A stretch of 64,000 bases of DNA from Portibacter lacus (GTDB lineage: Bacteria > Bacteroidota > Bacteroidia > Chitinophagales > Saprospiraceae), in NCBI RefSeq assembly GCF_021533215.1, contig NZ_JAJNKA010000002.1, positions 547,001-611,000 of the forward strand, in the 5' to 3' direction. This document shows, in pieces, positions 8,436 through 47,861 of this stretch. Under the pieces are notes generated by a model. That model had not been told where the DNA came from and searched no databases. It saw only the letters and a program-made list of their open reading frames with translations. The translations under genes were made by a program, and so were the position numbers. Numbering within the stretch: position 1 is the stretch's first letter; each line of letters opens with the position of its first letter.

Positions 8436-9296
8436 ATGAAAACCCTATTTATAGTCCTTTGTATTAGTTTATATTCTATCTCCTTAATCTCTCAGGATTG
8501 CGATCCTGGTGAAGAACCAGATCCACCCTTTGGCTGTGAAGAATGCGCTCCTGGTACCGCTTCACTTAATGGAGACGCCTGTATACCTTGTGACGTGGGT
8601 TATTTTCAAAATGAATACGCCCAAGATATATGTCTTTTATGCCCAGTAGGAAAATATCAAGATCAGACTGGACAAACTATCTGTAAAGACTGTCCTTTGG
8701 GTACCTTTACTTCCCAAGAAGGTTCTCCTTTATGCTTAGAATGTCCAGCTGGATTCTTTCAAGACGTGAAGGGACAGACTTCCTGTAAGGCTTGTCCTCC
8801 AGGAACATATCAACCTGACCCCGGACAATCCTCTTGCATACCCTGCCCTGTTGGAACATACCAAAGTCAATCAGGAGCTATTTCATGTATTCCCTGTGAA
8901 GCTGGAGAATATCAAGATCAAATAGGAGCTATTTCATGTATTCCCTGTGAGGCTGGAAAATATCAAGATCAAATAGGAGCTTCTTCTTGCATCCCTTGCC
9001 CAATTGGTTCATCTCAAGCTAATACTGGATCAGAATTTTGTGAACAATGCCCAGCTGGCACATATCAAAATCAACTTGGAAGTATCGATTGTTTAATTTG
9101 TCCTTCTAATTCAGCTTCCGATCCTGGTTCTGCATATTGTACCTTCGAAGCAAAAACAGTAGAAATAGGTCATGTGCTTAAACTCATTCCCATTGCTGCT
9201 GAACCTCTAAATCCAGAGGAAGGAATGATGTATTACGATAGTAATTCTGGGAAAATCAGGTATTATAATGGTCAAGCATGGATTACCTTGGATTAA
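8436..9296 (+). CDS. Secreted cysteine-rich GCC2/GCC3 (ephrin-receptor-like) repeat protein
   Basis: 286 residues with a signal peptide (MKTLFIVLCISLYSISLISQ). Residues ~20-235 form about nine cysteine-rich repeats of the form CxxCPxGxYQxxxGxxxC, which match the eukaryotic-type GCC2/GCC3 or ephrin-receptor-like (TNFR-like) module. The C-terminus (GMMYYDSNSGKIRYYNGQAWITLD) is the short beta segment often found at the end of Bacteroidota fibre-like proteins. At DNA level three consecutive 51-bp units starting at 8874, 8925 and 8976 are nearly identical, showing recent expansion. No T9SS sorting domain is visible. An adhesive or structural surface role is inference. Confidence 0.8.
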   Translation: MKTLFIVLCISLYSISLISQDCDPGEEPDPPFGCEECAPGTASLNGDACIPCDVGYFQNEYAQDICLLCPVGKYQDQTGQTICKDCPLGTFTSQEGSPLCLECPAGFFQDVKGQTSCKACPPGTYQPDPGQSSCIPCPVGTYQSQSGAISCIPCEAGEYQDQIGAISCIPCEAGKYQDQIGASSCIPCPIGSSQANTGSEFCEQCPAGTYQNQLGSIDCLICPSNSASDPGSAYCTFEAKTVEIGHVLKLIPIAAEPLNPEEGMMYYDSNSGKIRYYNGQAWITLD

Positions 9297-17438: not shown

Positions 17439-17672
17439 TAATATTAAATAATGGTTACAATGGGCTGATATTATTATGAGGATATAGGACTATATTTTTT
17501 TTCAAATGTAGTATTTCTTATGTCAATTTAAATCTGTCTTTTGCTTATTTTTTAAGGGTAAGGATTATTCGAGTATTTCCTTTCTGAAGTACAAATGCTT
17601 CTATAGCTTTATATACGCTCTAATTACAAATCTGTAGATATTTATTTATCTTGAATGCAAAATCAGTTTGTT
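17439..17672. other. Intergenic region before the S46 peptidase
   Basis: About 230 AT-rich bases with no ORF, hairpin terminator or clear promoter element recognised. Confidence 0.3.
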
Positions 17673-19835
17673 ATGAAATTCATCAAATTACAGATCATTA
17701 CTTTTTTATTTCTATTTGCAAATCCTTTGCTTTTTGCAGGAGAAGGAATGTGGCTCCCGCTTTTACTGAAGTCTCTGAATGAAGCTGAAATGCAATCCTT
17801 GGGAATGAAAATGACTGCAGAAGATATCTATAGTGTAAACCAAGGCAGTCTTAAGGATGCAATCGTTCACTTTGGTGGTTTTTGTACTTCGGAATTAATC
17901 TCTAATGAAGGTTTACTATTAACAAATCATCATTGCGGTTATGGAGCCATTCAATCTCATACAAGTTTAGAAAATAATTTTCTAAAAGAAGGTTTCTGGG
18001 CAAAAAGCAAAGCGGAAGAAAAACCGAATCCAGGCCTATTCGCCAAGTTTATCGTAAGGATCGAAGATGTAACTGATCAGGTTCTTAAGGGTGCCAAAGA
18101 CAAGATGAACGAAAAAGAATTGCAGTCGCTTACAGACAAGAATATAGATGCCATTCGAAAGTCTACAAAATTAGAAAAGCATGAAGAATTAGAAATCAAG
18201 CCCTTTTTCAAAGGCAACCAGTATTTTATGTTTGTAACCATGACTTATACCGATGTTCGATTGGTCGGCGCTCCACCTGAGAGTATAGGGAAATTCGGTG
18301 CCGATACGGACAACTGGGAATGGCCAAGACACACTGGAGATTTTTCTTTGTTTCGAATCTATGCAGGACCGGACAACATGCCAGCAGAATACAGTGAAAA
18401 CAATATTCCTTACCAGCCGAAACATTTCCTACCGATATCTTTGGACGGTGTAGCAGAAGGAGACTTCACGCTTATCTTTGGTTTTCCAGGCAGGACAGAT
18501 CAGTATCTGCCTGCTGTCGCTATCGAACAGACGGTCGATGTTCTCAACCCTGCAAAAATAGGAATTAGAGACAAGGCTTTGAAGATCATCGGAGCTAAGA
18601 TGCGTGCGGATGAATCGGTTAAGATTAAGTATTCTTCAAAATTTGCAAGCACAGCGAACTATTGGAAAAAGTGGATCGGTGAAAGTCAAGGTTTAGTAGC
18701 TACTAATGCGGTCATGAAAAAGAGAGATCAAGAGGCTGATTTTCAAGATAAAATTTATAAGAAGAGAAAACTTAAAAAGAAGTACGGGATGCTTTTGGGA
18801 GAATTTGAGACTGCTTATAAGGATATAGAAAAATTAGCCTATTCGAGGGATTATTACAGTGAAGTAGTAGGGCGAAATATTGAAATTTTTCGAATTCAAG
18901 GACTGCTTTCACGACTGCTTAACATTTACCAAGAAAATGGTGAAGCTGGTTATGAGAATTATAAGAGGCGGCTCATTCCCTATTTTGAAAATTTCTATAA
19001 AAATTACGATGCTAACATTGATGAAGAAGTGTTCGCAGCATTGCTAGAAATGTATGTTGAAAATGTAGACAATGAATATATTCCGCCTACTATATTTAAC
19101 TACGCTATGGGCTATGACGAAATAGCACAAGAGTTATATTCTAAAACCTTATTTAAGAATTCTGAAAAACTGATGGCTCTACTTTCATTACCAGCAGCAG
19201 AAGCTGCCGAGCAATTAAAAGAAGACCCTATAATGCAATTAGGCGAAGAATGGAAAGAGCTCTATGATGAGAAAGTGGCTACACCTTATAATATAAAAAA
19301 GGACAAGATTAATGCTTTGCAAAAGCAATACATGGCAGCTCTGATAGAGGCTTATCCTGATAAAACGTTCTGGCCAGATGCGAATAGTACAATGCGGGTA
19401 ACATATGGTCAAGTGGCAGGATATCATCCTAAAGATGCAGTCTACTACCTACCTGTTTCTTACTTAGAAGGCGTAATGGAAAAATACAAACCTGGGGACT
19501 ACGAATTTGATGTATCAGCAAAACTTATTGACCTCTTTAAGGAAAAAGATTATGGTCAATATGCAGATCAAAGTGGGAAAGTACCTGTTTGTTTCTTAGG
19601 GACTAATCATACGACAGGAGGAAATTCTGGCAGTCCTGCGATCGATGCTCATGGAAATCTAGTTGGACTTAATTTTGATAGAGTTTGGGAAGGAACGATG
19701 AGTGATCTGAATTATGACAAATCAATATGTAGAAACATTATGGTAGATATTCGGTATGTATTATTTATTGTGGATAAGTATGCTGGTGCAAGTCACCTGA
19801 TAGAAGAAATGAAGCTGGTGCATCCTAAGAAATGA
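17673..19835 (+). CDS. S46 family dipeptidyl-peptidase, DPP11-like (Asp/Glu-specific)
   Basis: 720 residues from the ATG at 17673, giving a clean signal peptide (MKFIKLQIITFLFLFANPLLFA); the ORF opens six codons earlier. Family features: GEGMWLPLLL at the mature N-terminus, His in LLLTNHHCGYGAIQSH (about residue 85), Asp in DNWEWPRHTGDF, Ser in TTGGNSGSPAIDAHGN (about 650). The residue 18 after the catalytic Ser is Arg (GLNFDRVWEG), the position that is Arg673 in P. gingivalis DPP11 and Gly in DPP7. This predicts release of dipeptides with acidic P1 residues in the periplasm. The neighbouring amino-acid symporter fits a peptide-feeding role. Confidence 0.93.
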   Translation: MKFIKLQIITFLFLFANPLLFAGEGMWLPLLLKSLNEAEMQSLGMKMTAEDIYSVNQGSLKDAIVHFGGFCTSELISNEGLLLTNHHCGYGAIQSHTSLENNFLKEGFWAKSKAEEKPNPGLFAKFIVRIEDVTDQVLKGAKDKMNEKELQSLTDKNIDAIRKSTKLEKHEELEIKPFFKGNQYFMFVTMTYTDVRLVGAPPESIGKFGADTDNWEWPRHTGDFSLFRIYAGPDNMPAEYSENNIPYQPKHFLPISLDGVAEGDFTLIFGFPGRTDQYLPAVAIEQTVDVLNPAKIGIRDKALKIIGAKMRADESVKIKYSSKFASTANYWKKWIGESQGLVATNAVMKKRDQEADFQDKIYKKRKLKKKYGMLLGEFETAYKDIEKLAYSRDYYSEVVGRNIEIFRIQGLLSRLLNIYQENGEAGYENYKRRLIPYFENFYKNYDANIDEEVFAALLEMYVENVDNEYIPPTIFNYAMGYDEIAQELYSKTLFKNSEKLMALLSLPAAEAAEQLKEDPIMQLGEEWKELYDEKVATPYNIKKDKINALQKQYMAALIEAYPDKTFWPDANSTMRVTYGQVAGYHPKDAVYYLPVSYLEGVMEKYKPGDYEFDVSAKLIDLFKEKDYGQYADQSGKVPVCFLGTNHTTGGNSGSPAIDAHGNLVGLNFDRVWEGTMSDLNYDKSICRNIMVDIRYVLFIVDKYAGASHLIEEMKLVHPKK

Positions 19836-19872
19836 TGTGATTAGAGGAAAGTAAACTCGGAATGCAGTGTAG

Positions 19873-20948
19873 CTAAAGTTGAATCTGTAACCGAGCTGTG
19901 TTTCGTGCGGTGGCTAGGATTGCAGAGTCGACTTGAGCTTCCTTGGATTTCTCCATTTCACATTCAGCTCTGCAATCCTCCCTGCCCAATAGGCTACTCT
20001 CGGCTTACAGATCTAAATGATCTGATGGTCTGATATACAGTTCAGGCTATCAGATGATCATGAACTTATAGTTTAACAATACAACTCATTTTATAACTTA
20101 CTAAAGTTGAATCTGTAAGCCGGGCAGTGTTGCGGGCGATGGCTAGGATTGCAGAGTCGACTTGGGCTTCCTTGAATTTCTCCATTCCACATTCAGCTCT
20201 GCAATCCTCTCTGCCCACTAGGCTACTCTCGGCTTACAGATCTAAATGATCTGATGGTATGACATACAGTTCAGGCTATCAGATGATCATGAACTTATAG
20301 TTTAACAATACAACTCATTTTATAAATTGCTAAAGTTGAATCTGTAAGCCGAGCTGTGTTTCGTGTGGTGGCTTGGATTGCAGAGTCGACTTGGGCTTCC
20401 TTGAATTTCTCCATTCCACATTCAGCTCTGCAATCCTCCCTGCCCAATAGGCTACTCTCGGCTTACAGATCTAAATGATCTGATGGTATGACATTCAGCT
20501 CAGGCTACCAGATGATCATGAACTTATAGTTTAACAATACAACTCATTTTATAAATTGCTAAAGTTGAATCTGTAAGCCAAGCTGTGTTTCGTTAGGTGC
20601 CTAGGATTGCAGAGTCGACTTGGGCTTCCTTGAATTTCTCCATTCCACATTCAGCTCTGCAATCCTCTCTGCCAACTAGGCTACTCTCGGCTTACAGATC
20701 TAAATGATCTGATGGTCTGACATACAGTTCAGGCTATCAGATGATCATGAACTTATAGTTTAACAATACAACTCATTTTATAACTTACTAAAGTTGAATC
20801 TGTAAGCCGGGCAGTGTTGCGGGCGATGGCTAGGATTGCAGAGTCGACTTGAGCTTCCTTGGATTTCTCCATTCCACATTCAGCTCTGCAATCCTCCCTG
20901 CCCACTAGACTACTCTCGGCTCACTAAGCTAATTGATCTGACTTCCAG
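19873..20948. repeat. Tandem array of ~229-bp units (four full plus one partial) with nested inverted repeats
   Basis: Units begin CTAAAGTTGAATCTGTAA at 19873, 20101, 20330, 20559 and 20788 (periods 228, 229, 229, 229). The fifth unit is cut near 20920, after CTCGGCT. Within each unit, ATCTGTAAGCCGAG pairs with CTCGGCTTACAGAT, and inside it GGATTGCAGAG pairs with CTCTGCAATCC. The inner stem is perfect in all five units; the outer 5' arm varies. A third imperfect inverted repeat (ATGATCTGATGG with CTATCAGATGATCAT) lies in the linker half. There is no conserved reading frame. The array begins 37 bases past the S46 stop and ends against a truncated yoeB. Function unknown; a structured RNA or recombination-driven DNA element are both possible. 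Confidence 0.92.
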
Positions 20949-21229: not shown

Positions 21230-21787
21230 TTACCACCTAGAATAAATTCGTTCTACTTTTCCTGTTTTTTTGTTATAAATTATAGTCAAGCCTCCTACAT
21301 CAGCAACTACTGTTCGACCATTAATATCTACCACACTATTTAAAAACATCTTCCTAAGATTACTAACAAAGTCTCGAGACCTAGAATAACTTAATGGATA
21401 AAGTTCTTTCACCACGTTTATTGGCATGCCAACATAAAATTGAACATTATGATTATCTACTATAATTATGGAGGCATCTAGAATTTCTGAGTTCCCCAGC
21501 TGATTTTGCTTCAGTGCTTCCTTTTGCAGAAACGATTTTCCTCGAAACAACCTCGTTTCATTAACTCCGTCATACTCATTTAGATAGGCCTCACTACGCC
21601 ATTCATCCTTTATAAGCTCATAGAATTGACTAAACTCATAAACTTTATCATTGCTCCTCGTTCTATCAATTATATGAAAGTCCTCGATATTTATTAGTTC
21701 ACGTAAATCTCTGTCCACTATTTCTTGCGAAAAGACATAGAATATTGTACAATTGACCAATAATAATATGAAAACAAATCTAATCAA
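21230..21787 (-). CDS. Secreted protein of unknown function
   Basis: 185 residues. The start codon is TTG (21787) and the first ~20 residues (MIRFVFILLLVNCTIFYVFS) form a signal peptide ending before QEIVDRD. The mature part is mixed charged/hydrophobic, ends with two beta-like strands (VVADVGGLTIIYNKKTGKV, then ERIYSRW), and has one isolated segment NVQFYVGMPINVVKELYP. No family recognised. No partner gene shares its direction closely; the sterol-desaturase-like gene downstream of the gap is also on the minus strand but separate. Confidence 0.6.
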   Translation of the reverse strand: MIRFVFILLLVNCTIFYVFSQEIVDRDLRELINIEDFHIIDRTRSNDKVYEFSQFYELIKDEWRSEAYLNEYDGVNETRLFRGKSFLQKEALKQNQLGNSEILDASIIIVDNHNVQFYVGMPINVVKELYPLSYSRSRDFVSNLRKMFLNSVVDINGRTVVADVGGLTIIYNKKTGKVERIYSRW

Positions 21788-45520: not shown

Positions 45521-45689
45521 TTGATCTTAAATTAAATACTAGAGCGAGAACATTTAAAAGCACTATAAATATAAACCTCGGAAATCTAGAAATATTGTTT
45601 TATGAGAGTATCTAATTTATGGCCAAAGACTATAAATTTAAGTCGCAAGGGATGAATTTGTTCTTGAACTAAATTTGTTCTTCGGGAAA

Positions 45690-45720
45690 TTGATGTCATC
45701 GATGTGAAGCGCTAACAGCA
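45690..45720 (-). repeat. Dispersed 3'-end hairpin, type 1, copy E1
   Basis: On the plus strand TTGATGTCATCG, ATGTGAA, GCGCTAACAGCA; one arm is diverged (CAGCA for CATCA). It lies about 114 nt past the stop of the second helicase gene, after copy E2. Confidence 0.6.
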
Positions 45721-45740
45721 GAAAGCTGTCCTTCTGAAAA

Positions 45741-45773
45741 TTGTTGTCATCGCCGTGAAGCGCTAACATCACA
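45741..45773 (-). repeat. Dispersed 3'-end hairpin, type 1, copy E2
   Basis: Sequence nearly identical to copy D (TTGTTGTCATCGC, CGTGAA, GCGCTAACATCACAA on the plus strand), with the similarity reaching 15-20 bp upstream. It begins 60 nt past the helicase stop, sense orientation. Confidence 0.7.
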
Positions 45774-45833
45774 AGCCTTGCTCCAAAACCAAACTGATAG
45801 GATGACTAGAGGTCATGCTATCAAATGTTTTTT

Positions 45834-47861
45834 CTAAGAAAAGTCCATTCCGAAATCAAAGTCGAAGTCGTTCGCAATCGGAGCATCGACACTCTCTCCT
45901 TTTTCTTGACTGTAGAAGACCTGATCAGTTAACTCTTCAGGGAATTCGTTCAGAAAGTAAGTTGGTACAGCACTTCCATCTTCAGTAACATGATCTTCTG
46001 CATATATAGAACTCGTCCTTCGGGTGATGAATAACTCATCTTTAGCTCGGGTGAGCGCCACATACAATACTCTTCGATCTTCCTCTACCTTCTCAATGTC
46101 TCCTAGTGACCAAGCCGATGGATACACTTTCGGAGAAACATTCAACACAAAACAAGTGCTTGCTTCCAGACCTTTCGCGGAGTGGACAGTGGAAATGATA
46201 ACCGCATCCTCTTCCTTATTCTCCTGAATTTCAGACTTCTTCAGCGTAGGAGAATTATTGATTTTCGTAGAATTATCTAATAAGCATTCCGTAATAAACT
46301 CACTAAGATTAGAGTAATTTCTGGCTAAAAGCGTCAAAATTGGAAAATCAGGTTTCCGTTTTTTATCCCAGTCTTGAACATATTTCATTGCTAATCGTGC
46401 TTGCATCGTTCCGTAAGCTGCTTCGACCGCTTTATCTATTTTGTCCATATTCGAAGCAATGCCTTTCAGGGTTTCTATCATTTCAAATGGGCCTTTACTC
46501 CCTTCTTCTAACCACTGAATACACTCTTCTATATCTTCCTTATTAATTAACTCCTGAATGTACTTCGCTGCCGAAATTTCTCCGATCCCTTCCCAGAACG
46601 TAAGAAAACGGACCCATGCAATTTCATCCAAGTTATTATTTACTACTCGGAAAGCTGAAAAAACATCTTTTAAGTGAGCTGCTTCCATAAAACTACGGCC
46701 TCCATAGGTTTCGAAAGGAATTTTCTTCTCTATAAAAATGGCTTGCAACGAACGTGTATAATTCTGAGATCTAGAGAGAATAAGGTGATCATTGTACTCC
46801 TTGTCCTTTTCTGTAAAATTCTCAATGATCTTAGCAGCGATGAAGTATCCTTCTTCCCATTCATTCGGAACATTAATTATTTTTGGTTTAATACCACTGC
46901 CTCGTACCGCTGATAATCGTTTTTCATAATTCAAGGTAGACTTGTCCAATAACCAGTTCGAAACATCGAGTATCTCAGACGTAGATCTATAATTCTCCTC
47001 CAGCCTGAAGACCTCAGCATCCTTCACATTCTTCTTGAAATTATGAATATTTTTGAAATCTGCACCTCTGAAAGCATAGATGGATTGGGCGTCATCACCT
47101 ACGCAGAACAAGTGGCAAATTTGCTGAAATGGTCTGATTAATTCCCACTGAAGTGGATTCGTATCTTGCATCTCATCGATCAACAAATGTTCGTACTTCT
47201 TTCCAATAATTTGCCTTGCTTTCGGGTCTTTATTGAGTCGATTCGCCACGACCTGGATCATGTCATCATAATCTAGATACTTCCTTTCTCGCTTTTTCAT
47301 CTCGTACTTACGGAGAATCGATTCGACCAGTGGTTTTACTTCTGCTAATCTTTCTTCTAATTCATTCTCAGGTACGTCATCGAATAACTTGACGGTTAAG
47401 GTGTCTGTTAGGTTCCGCTTAGTATTCCTTGCGAAAGAGTACAGATCTACCAGTTTCCTTGGCTTTAATCTTAGTTTTTTAAAGGCTTCTTTTTGATTTC
47501 CGCACACCATTTTCATAATGGAGACTTGATCATCTTCATCTATAATGGTAAATTTTGCGGTACCGAAAACATTAGGAAAGTTATAAAGTAGCTGATTACA
47601 CCAAGAATGGAAGGTAGAACCGGTCGGATTCTTACCTGATTGCTCTCCCATGGAAGCTTTCACCCTGGATACGATCTCACTTGCAGCTCTTTTGGTGAAG
47701 GTCAATATTTGAATTTTACTTGGATCAACTCCTTTGCTAATGAGATATACCGCTCTTGCGATTATGGTACGCGTCTTCCCTGTCCCTGCTCCAGCTAGAA
47801 CCAGCAAATGTTTGCCTTCGAATTGTGCGGCCTTGAGTTGATTTGTGTTTAATTCTGACAT
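45834..47861 (-). CDS. Second UvrD/Rep-type superfamily I helicase
   Basis: 675 residues. Motifs: LNTNQLKAAQFEGKHLLVLA, Walker A GAGTGKTRT, LLIDEMQDTNPLQW (motif II DEMQD), GDDAQSIYAFRGADF, ENYRST, STVHSAKGLEASTCFVLN, YVALTRAKDELF. It is shorter than the first helicase and lacks the C-terminal Tudor-like domain, ending instead with an unusual Asp/Phe repeat (DFDFDFGMDFS). It is a 3'-5' DNA helicase of repair or plasmid/phage-type metabolism; role not specified by context. Two copies of the dispersed hairpin follow it. Confidence 0.92.
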   Translation of the reverse strand: MSELNTNQLKAAQFEGKHLLVLAGAGTGKTRTIIARAVYLISKGVDPSKIQILTFTKRAASEIVSRVKASMGEQSGKNPTGSTFHSWCNQLLYNFPNVFGTAKFTIIDEDDQVSIMKMVCGNQKEAFKKLRLKPRKLVDLYSFARNTKRNLTDTLTVKLFDDVPENELEERLAEVKPLVESILRKYEMKKRERKYLDYDDMIQVVANRLNKDPKARQIIGKKYEHLLIDEMQDTNPLQWELIRPFQQICHLFCVGDDAQSIYAFRGADFKNIHNFKKNVKDAEVFRLEENYRSTSEILDVSNWLLDKSTLNYEKRLSAVRGSGIKPKIINVPNEWEEGYFIAAKIIENFTEKDKEYNDHLILSRSQNYTRSLQAIFIEKKIPFETYGGRSFMEAAHLKDVFSAFRVVNNNLDEIAWVRFLTFWEGIGEISAAKYIQELINKEDIEECIQWLEEGSKGPFEMIETLKGIASNMDKIDKAVEAAYGTMQARLAMKYVQDWDKKRKPDFPILTLLARNYSNLSEFITECLLDNSTKINNSPTLKKSEIQENKEEDAVIISTVHSAKGLEASTCFVLNVSPKVYPSAWSLGDIEKVEEDRRVLYVALTRAKDELFITRRTSSIYAEDHVTEDGSAVPTYFLNEFPEELTDQVFYSQEKGESVDAPIANDFDFDFGMDFS

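Follow-up and report, generated by a model that had tools for sequence, protein, structure and literature searches.

The window analysed here is a stretch of 64,000 nucleotides of Portibacter lacus DNA. An open reading frame at 17655..19835 (+ strand) encodes an S46 peptidase (Pfam PF10459), and 37 bases separate the end of this gene from a tandem array that occupies 19873..20941. On the other side of the array lies a 185-aa ORF at 21230..21787 (- strand), convergent with the peptidase gene, for which we found no Pfam or NCBIfam match at an E-value of 0.001. We kept 80 named relatives of the peptidase, which had 54-66% identity in the best segment; when the orthologous site was sought, neither of two same-genus genomes had a match to the S46 gene.

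Repeat geometry and composition of the 229-bp unit

Tandem Repeats Finder delimited the array at 19873-20941 with a period of 229, 4.7 copies, 92% matches and a score of 1837, confirming the 229-bp tandem repeat reported in a preliminary description of this DNA. The units start at 19873, 20101, 20330, 20559 and 20788, and the resulting spacings (228/229/229/229) agree with the near-constant period noticed there. The array had also been described as non-coding, and no ORF in it reaches 100 aa; no tRNA or tmRNA was found, and there were 0 Rfam matches above the gathering scores in the window. When one unit was folded with RNA parameters, a check proposed in the same description, the + strand gave -79.8 kcal/mol (z -6.2 against 200 shuffles), and the - strand gave a z of -5.1.

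Each unit had been said to hold two nested stems and a third, imperfect inverted repeat in the linker. The outer 14-bp stem was recovered in part of the units: unit 3 has all 14 nt paired perfectly (20340-20353 with 20457-20470), unit 4 has 93% matches over 14 nt and unit 2 a perfect stem of 12 nt, while the search gave none of at least 12 nt for units 1 and 5, where our reading of the sequence is that the 5' arm of unit 1 is one base short and the 3' arm of unit 5 is changed. The inner stem of 11-12 bp is perfect in all five units, being 12 nt long in units 1, 2, 4 and 5 (inverted-repeat search, at least 12 nt) and 11 nt, GGATTGCAGAG, in unit 3, as read from the sequence. The nested stems correspond to two inverse copies of one hairpin, module A, and the third inverted repeat turned out to be a separate conserved hairpin, module B, matched in units 1-4 at an E-value of 7.7e-12 or better (three of these four rows belong to the alignment of the module B model itself). 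Shuffling of unit variants was borne out as well: unit 5 is identical to unit 2 across columns 1-45 (0 differences), and over columns 46-110 its closest match is unit 1, with 1 difference, a pattern that is compatible with recombination, by conversion or exchange between units.

The unit is thus composite, with the order A(+), A(-), B(+), linker. Module A is a 67-nt hairpin of roughly ACATTTAGATCTGTAAGCCGAG, some 20 variable bases and AGGATTGCAGAGCTGAATGT, and module B is a 50-nt hairpin of roughly TGATCTGATGGTCTGAC, a few bases and GTCAGGCTATCA..GATCA. We located both with covariance models, R1 for A and R2 for B, that were built from copies of the organism's own genome, those of the window included, so that scores on the training copies (marked "training row" below) are high by construction. 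Unit 1 comprises module A at 19872..19937 (+, R1 61.0 bits), inverted A at 19958..20023 (-, R1 67.9 bits, training row) and module B at 20015..20066 (+, R2 66.7 bits, training row). The corresponding matches are at 20100..20166 (+, 70.5 bits, training row), 20187..20252 (-, 70.5 bits) and 20244..20295 (+, 65.7 bits, training row) in unit 2; at 20329..20395 (+, 65.8 bits), 20416..20481 (-, 68.5 bits, training row) and 20473..20524 (+, 57.5 bits) in unit 3; and at 20558..20624 (+, 58.9 bits, training row), 20645..20710 (-, 67.3 bits, training row) and 20702..20753 (+, 70.3 bits, training row) in unit 4. The partial unit 5 has module A at 20787..20853 (+, 70.0 bits) and an inverted A with a diverged 5' end at 20874..20939 (-, 43.1 bits). 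The succession of A, inverted A and B is found in each of the four full units, giving the array the inverse pairs and tandem units that characterize BIMEs. The linker, of which 20754..20786 is one of four copies, had no match at an E-value of 1e-5 in the other multi-copy clusters of the genome (56 in all, the array being cluster C22_566872).

Two further repeats lie in the window. At 45686-45835 there is a second, smaller composite element with two TGATGT..GCGCTAACATCA-like inverted repeats (by eye), after which comes a single B hairpin (45786-45831, - strand, 40.1 bits), and a GCGCT-type module similar to this element occurs in arrays on other contigs. A tandem repeat of period 51 (8841-8981, 2.8 copies, 84% matches) is contained in a 286-aa ORF (8436-9296).

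Hairpin structure and genome-wide spread of modules A and B

We drew the stems by hand from the consensus and evaluated them in alignments of own-genome copies, with 41 copies of A (alignment A3) and 22 copies of B, 20 of them distinct (alignment A4). In the A stem 90.6% of the cells were paired, and 8 of 15 pairs showed changes in both partners; in the B stem 96.3% were paired, and 4 of 16 pairs showed such changes. The covariation score and the percentage paired were reached by 0 of 500 shuffles for A and B alike, a statistic that should not be read as a probability because rows from one array are related. Sliding the stems out of register gave at most 43.7% paired and a score of 0.089 for A, against 90.6% and 0.173 in the true register, and at most 48.0% and 0.047 for B, against 96.3% and 0.098. 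Counted by further pair types, the stems did not exceed the shuffles (185 of 500 reached the value for A and 297 of 500 for B).

The A stem carries irregularities that are nearly fixed. These were counted in the 99 of the 128 genomic A matches (see below) that are 67 nt long, 97 of them distinct, leaving aside the 29 of other length. A12xG57 was unpaired in 97 of 97 distinct copies and G20xA49 in 95 of 97, T17.G52 was a wobble in 91 of 97, and the A.G and G.A mismatches as such were each present in 94 of 97. The pairs around the mismatches were kept in 82 to 96 of the 97 copies, and column pair 15-54 was seen as T-A, G-C, A-T and C-G; the outermost five pairs were looser (5-64 to 9-60, paired in 60 to 73 of 97). 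As judged from sequence comparison, the fixed irregularities suggest that a folded single strand is recognized. As imperfect palindromes able to fold as hairpins, both modules resemble REPs; however, the GT[AG]G foot of classical REPs was not conserved at the 5' end (5 of 128 A copies and 19 of 132 B copies, with about 6% expected by chance), and at the other end of the hairpin it was seen in 27 A and 9 B copies. Because the foot is not conserved, we call the array a variant and not a classical member of the REP class.

The preliminary description had recommended a search for the unit elsewhere in the genome, and in the 6.31 Mb of the assembly (43 contigs) such a search gave 75 DNA matches, 74 of them partial. 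Many of the matched places were other tandem arrays with other periods in which the modules recur, a point absent from that description. At E-values of 0.01 or less we computed at least 128 copies of A with R1 and at least 132 copies of B with R2; both are lower bounds, since 150 first-look candidates were scored in each search (of 1557 for A and 3456 for B). R1 scores ranged from 26.9 to 82.8 bits genome-wide and from 43.1 to 70.5 bits in the array. The copies group in 97 clusters, of which 56 are multi-copy, 41 are single and 8 contain both types. Of the 56 multi-copy clusters, 42 had between-copy pieces that recur in other clusters, and the array belongs to the 14 that had none; as counted, these "linkers" take in flank sequence (up to 150 bases) as well as other repeat modules. 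Further modules that other arrays have in common are D, E and short-period tracts. In loci L016, L019, L025 and L031 of the same genome we also saw TTTCGCAGATTTCGCAGATT-like tracts between the hairpins of several arrays, and in L014, L031 and L041 there were B-type copies whose stem is preceded by an A run and followed by a T run (e.g., AAAAACTCATGG..CTATGAATGTTTTTT), which have the look of two-way terminators.

The copies are dispersed between ORFs. Although ORFs of at least 150 aa cover 70% of the DNA fetched, none of the 260 copies lay by half or more inside one, and 4 of 260 touched one, with an overlap of 1-5 bases. With ORFs of at least 100 aa, which may be spurious, 13 of 260 copies overlapped one, 8 of them by half or more. 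High copy number, dispersal and extragenic position are thus found for A and B as for REPs. With context taken from the nearest ORFs and not from annotated genes, 36 clusters were convergent, 10 divergent and 43 co-directional, and 8 had no ORF on one side; the excess of convergent over divergent clusters (36 vs 10) has a p-value of 1.6e-4. In the 43 co-directional clusters there was no clear strand preference relative to the neighbours (A, 9 same and 5 opposite, p 0.42; B, 16 and 14 with 2 ties, p 0.86).

The modules were not detected in other genomes at the thresholds used: R1 had a match in 0 of 29 other genomes at an E-value of 0.001, including both same-genus genomes and 16 others from the family, and R2 in 0 of 19 at an E-value of 0.0001, again including the two of the same genus. 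These searches scored 150 candidates, and under the same scoring the own genome returned 127 A and 103 B copies. The preliminary description had named, as grounds for refutation, the lack of a transcript, the absence of the unit from all relatives and copy-number differences explained by assembly error. The absence from relatives held in part, for A in 29 and for B in 19 genomes at these thresholds; since A or B modules make up 97 clusters of the genome, this points to a lineage-specific expansion rather than to an assembly artefact.

RAYT-like genes and the repeats at their flanks

Besides two plain IS200-type TnpA genes, a PF01797 search of the genome turned up a weak match that led to further RAYT-like genes. 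Seven proteins matched NF047646 (REP_Tyr_transpos) at 37.8-70.8 bits, all seven being below the 80-bit cut-off of that model, and 4 of the 7 matched PF01797 at an E-value of 0.001. The four main proteins carry NHFH and an invariant Tyr, that is, the HuH motif and catalytic tyrosine expected of a RAYT. Their profile had TnpArep (4er8) as its best solved structure, but the match was weak (E 0.007 over 47 positions), and next in rank, at 0.014, was a superoxide dismutase, which is unrelated. Across the wider family, RAYT genes of the same kind were present in 18 of 41 genomes, the own genome included (E 1e-10).

Ten Y1-type loci were scanned with both R1 and R2. At an E-value of 0.01 or less R2 matched in only two of the ten: two B hairpins flank the RAYT-like gene C2:96710 on either side (52.6 and 43.5 bits; 52.6 and 38.7 bits), and C13:73864 has one, on one side only (35.4 bits). 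R1 likewise matched in only two of the ten, at an E-value of 1 or less. At C2:184996 both ends carry an A-like hairpin (24.3 and 20.7 bits; E 5.7e-5 and 6.9e-4), with a 5-base overlap between one of them and the end of the gene, and in an alignment read by eye the A.G and G.A mismatches are kept while the pairs between them have changed in compensation. C4:122787 has 15 A-like matches over both sides (14.0 to 23.6 bits), 8 of the 15 at an E-value of 0.01 or less with at least one such match on each side. These A-like hairpins are weak overall (14.0-24.3 bits, 10 of 17 at an E-value of 0.01 or less) against the 26.9-82.8 bits of the genome-wide list, so that none of the RAYT genes found is flanked by the exact A consensus; the cognate RAYT of exact A may have been lost or may be missing from the 43-contig assembly. 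Repeats on both flanks, as in a RAYT/REPtron, are accordingly seen for B at C2:96710, and for A only as diverged A-like hairpins at C2:184996 and C4:122787. The plain IS200-type TnpA genes, C2:17006 and C42:183631, were dropped as candidate mobilizers because R1 and R2 had no match at an E-value of 1 or less in their loci (L035 and L036).

Another RAYT-like gene, C38:204201, sits among 129-bp repeats of its own. Runs of 7-, 14- and 21-bp units (AGTCTTG, GACTTTA and similar) occur near it as well as in or beside A arrays (L012, L013, L032 and L037).

A repeat common to both flanks, not necessarily a hairpin, was present at 11 of 19 RAYT loci (3 of 4 in the own genome and 8 of 15 in relatives), compared with 1 of 69 S46 control loci; the remaining 8 of the 19 had none. 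Both sets were picked by hand. The RAYT loci were chosen for long matches and flanks (L222, L231-L234, L238-L243, L246 and matches without a locus were left out, and L225 and L230, which were kept, have internal stop codons), and the controls were chosen for flank length from the 80 relative loci and a second S46 search (6), which makes them one gene family from mostly other genomes. Two RAYT loci of different genera, L219 (genome G005) and L220 (genome G003), have a near-identical palindrome on both flanks, CGTTTACTAAACCT..AGGTTTAGTAAACG, so that a RAYT and its palindrome may be inherited or transferred together; the repeats listed for the other loci look different from each other.

Origin of the array

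Hairpins that occur by the hundred in the genome, and beside some of its own single-strand transposase genes, make it most likely that the array is a cluster of non-autonomous mobile DNA, of a general kind already known but in a bacterial group that has received little study. In particular, we consider it a hybrid BIME-like cluster of REP-like hairpins A and B that would have been served by RAYT-type HuH/Y1 transposases and then amplified in tandem, a reading to which we give a probability of about 0.8 and in which mobilization is inferred. A and B would be the non-autonomous elements of RAYT-type single-strand transposases encoded elsewhere in the genome. Such an enzyme would bind the folded single-stranded hairpin of just one strand, given that its G.T pairs turn into A.C in the complement, and would cut and rejoin at the hairpin, so seeding new copies between genes, behind genes more often than before them. 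A module of A, inverted A and B that had arrived behind the S46 peptidase gene would then have multiplied in tandem, either through RAYT-driven circle replication, as proposed for BIMEs, or through slippage, and unequal exchange would have shuffled the unit variants. It is conceivable, but we hold it only tentatively, that the genome has two RAYT systems whose substrates were fused into the composite tandem units, with A recognized through its internal mismatches in place of a foot tetranucleotide and the unit movable or amplifiable by either enzyme.

Among the options offered by the preliminary description, a recombination structure comes nearest to what we found, namely genome-wide, intergenic, strand-asymmetric hairpins of which some flank RAYT genes; a repeated structured RNA fits less well. 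The hairpins might nevertheless act mainly as RNA, in ending transcription or protecting mRNA 3' ends, with the array kept for its effect on the peptidase mRNA: the + strand folds strongly (z -6.2), the array starts 38 bases past the last base of the peptidase gene, convergent clusters outnumber divergent ones by 36 to 10, and some B-type copies are edged by terminator-like A and T runs. We think this improbable, as orientation relative to co-directional genes shows no clear preference (A 9:5, B 16:14 with 2 ties, small numbers), there is no Rfam match, A and B were not found in the same-genus genomes at the thresholds used, and the conserved mismatches would be unexpected in simple terminators. 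Alternatively, the array could be satellite-like, generated by slippage during replication or by unequal crossing over, with no dedicated transposase and with the likeness to RAYT flanks due to coincidence or parasitism. This would account for the very regular period with its 92% matches, the shuffled variants and a linker that none of the other clusters compared has. It is hard to square with 97 dispersed clusters, hairpins on both sides of three RAYT-like genes, and flank-shared repeats at 11 of 19 RAYT loci vs 1 of 69 controls, and we regard it as very improbable, although slippage or unequal crossing over may explain the tandem step alone.

We also considered an integron-like cassette array. 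The attC sites of integrons contain RYYYAAC and GTTRRRY words, and by eye the linker has one of each. We rejected this reading, to which we attach next to no probability, for want of an integrase over the cut-off: there were 8 matches to the integron integrase model, 0 of them over its cut-off, the model also matches below cut-off in 14 of 14 control genomes, and the best match was, as read from the sequence, a Xer-like recombinase on another contig, C5. Moreover, none of the other 55 multi-copy clusters matches the linker. The Xer-like protein (L247 1073-2788) has 571 aa with a long N-terminal extension, and a pair of B hairpins (C5:169745-169930) lies some 0.5 kb from its gene.

The reading as a RAYT-served hybrid BIME agrees with several described systems. 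In the available part of Nunvar et al. 2010 (PMC2817692), BIMEs are tandem modules of alternating REPs, some of them hybrids with the REPs of two different RAYTs. The Stenotrophomonas hybrid BIMEs described there share with the present case the head-to-tail tandem modules, the alternating orientation, the combination of REPs of two different RAYTs (putatively so here) and arrays that in some cases adjoin rayt genes, and the inter-REP segment of the present array is specific to the array as well. In contrast to that account, as far as the available text extends, our organism belongs to the Saprospiraceae (Bacteroidota), its hairpins are longer (models of 67 and 50 positions), no GT[AG]G foot is conserved, A has two near-fixed mismatches, and between-copy pieces are common to other clusters in 42 of 56 multi-copy clusters, whereas the inter-REP segments there are unrelated. 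For E. coli, the accessible part of PMC8266576 describes a conserved AA-GC mismatch in the REP that TnpAREP needs. Imperfect hairpins with a conserved mismatch and tandem BIMEs are common to both cases, and the strand-specific recognition there has its parallel in strand-asymmetric hairpins here; the E. coli REPs, however, have 29-37 nt, the AA-GC mismatch and a GTAG foot, while module A has A.G and G.A mismatches, a stem of 18 positions and a 24-nt loop region. A survey of GTAG/CGTC palindromes (PMC3733652, available in part) likewise reports dimers and clusters reiterated in tandem.

Among the enzymes, a candidate counterpart is TnpAREP subclass 2.6, or RAYT group 5, for which Quentin et al. 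2018 (PMC6006769, in the part available) report Bacteroidetes hosts, "atypical secondary structures" and flanking hairpins without GT[AG]G. The present case resembles it in the phylum, in gene-flanking hairpins without GT[AG]G, in copies elsewhere in the genome and in HuH and Y motifs of the class 2 type. It differs from what that text gives in having NHFH where the subclass has NH[LIV]H, and in Y motifs (YLHHNP, YVHHNP, YIHENP and YIIHNA, 3 of 4 being Y-x-H-x-N-P) of which 0 of 4 is exactly YIH[QN]NP; the four main proteins also lack a W at the place of the WQ motif. The word "tandem" occurs 0 times in the available text of that paper, and among open-licence papers we found no description of such arrays in Saprospiraceae.

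In the literature, as far as the sources available to us reach, RAYTs and REPs are known mostly from Proteobacteria and from hairpins with a GT[AG]G foot. The genome of P. lacus is a rich Bacteroidota case: its two hairpin types together number at least 260 copies, and it has several RAYT-like genes, some of them flanked by palindromes, as well as mosaic tandem arrays. The near-fixed mismatches of module A provide a testable hypothesis of how a RAYT without a GTAG guide may pick its strand and its substrate.
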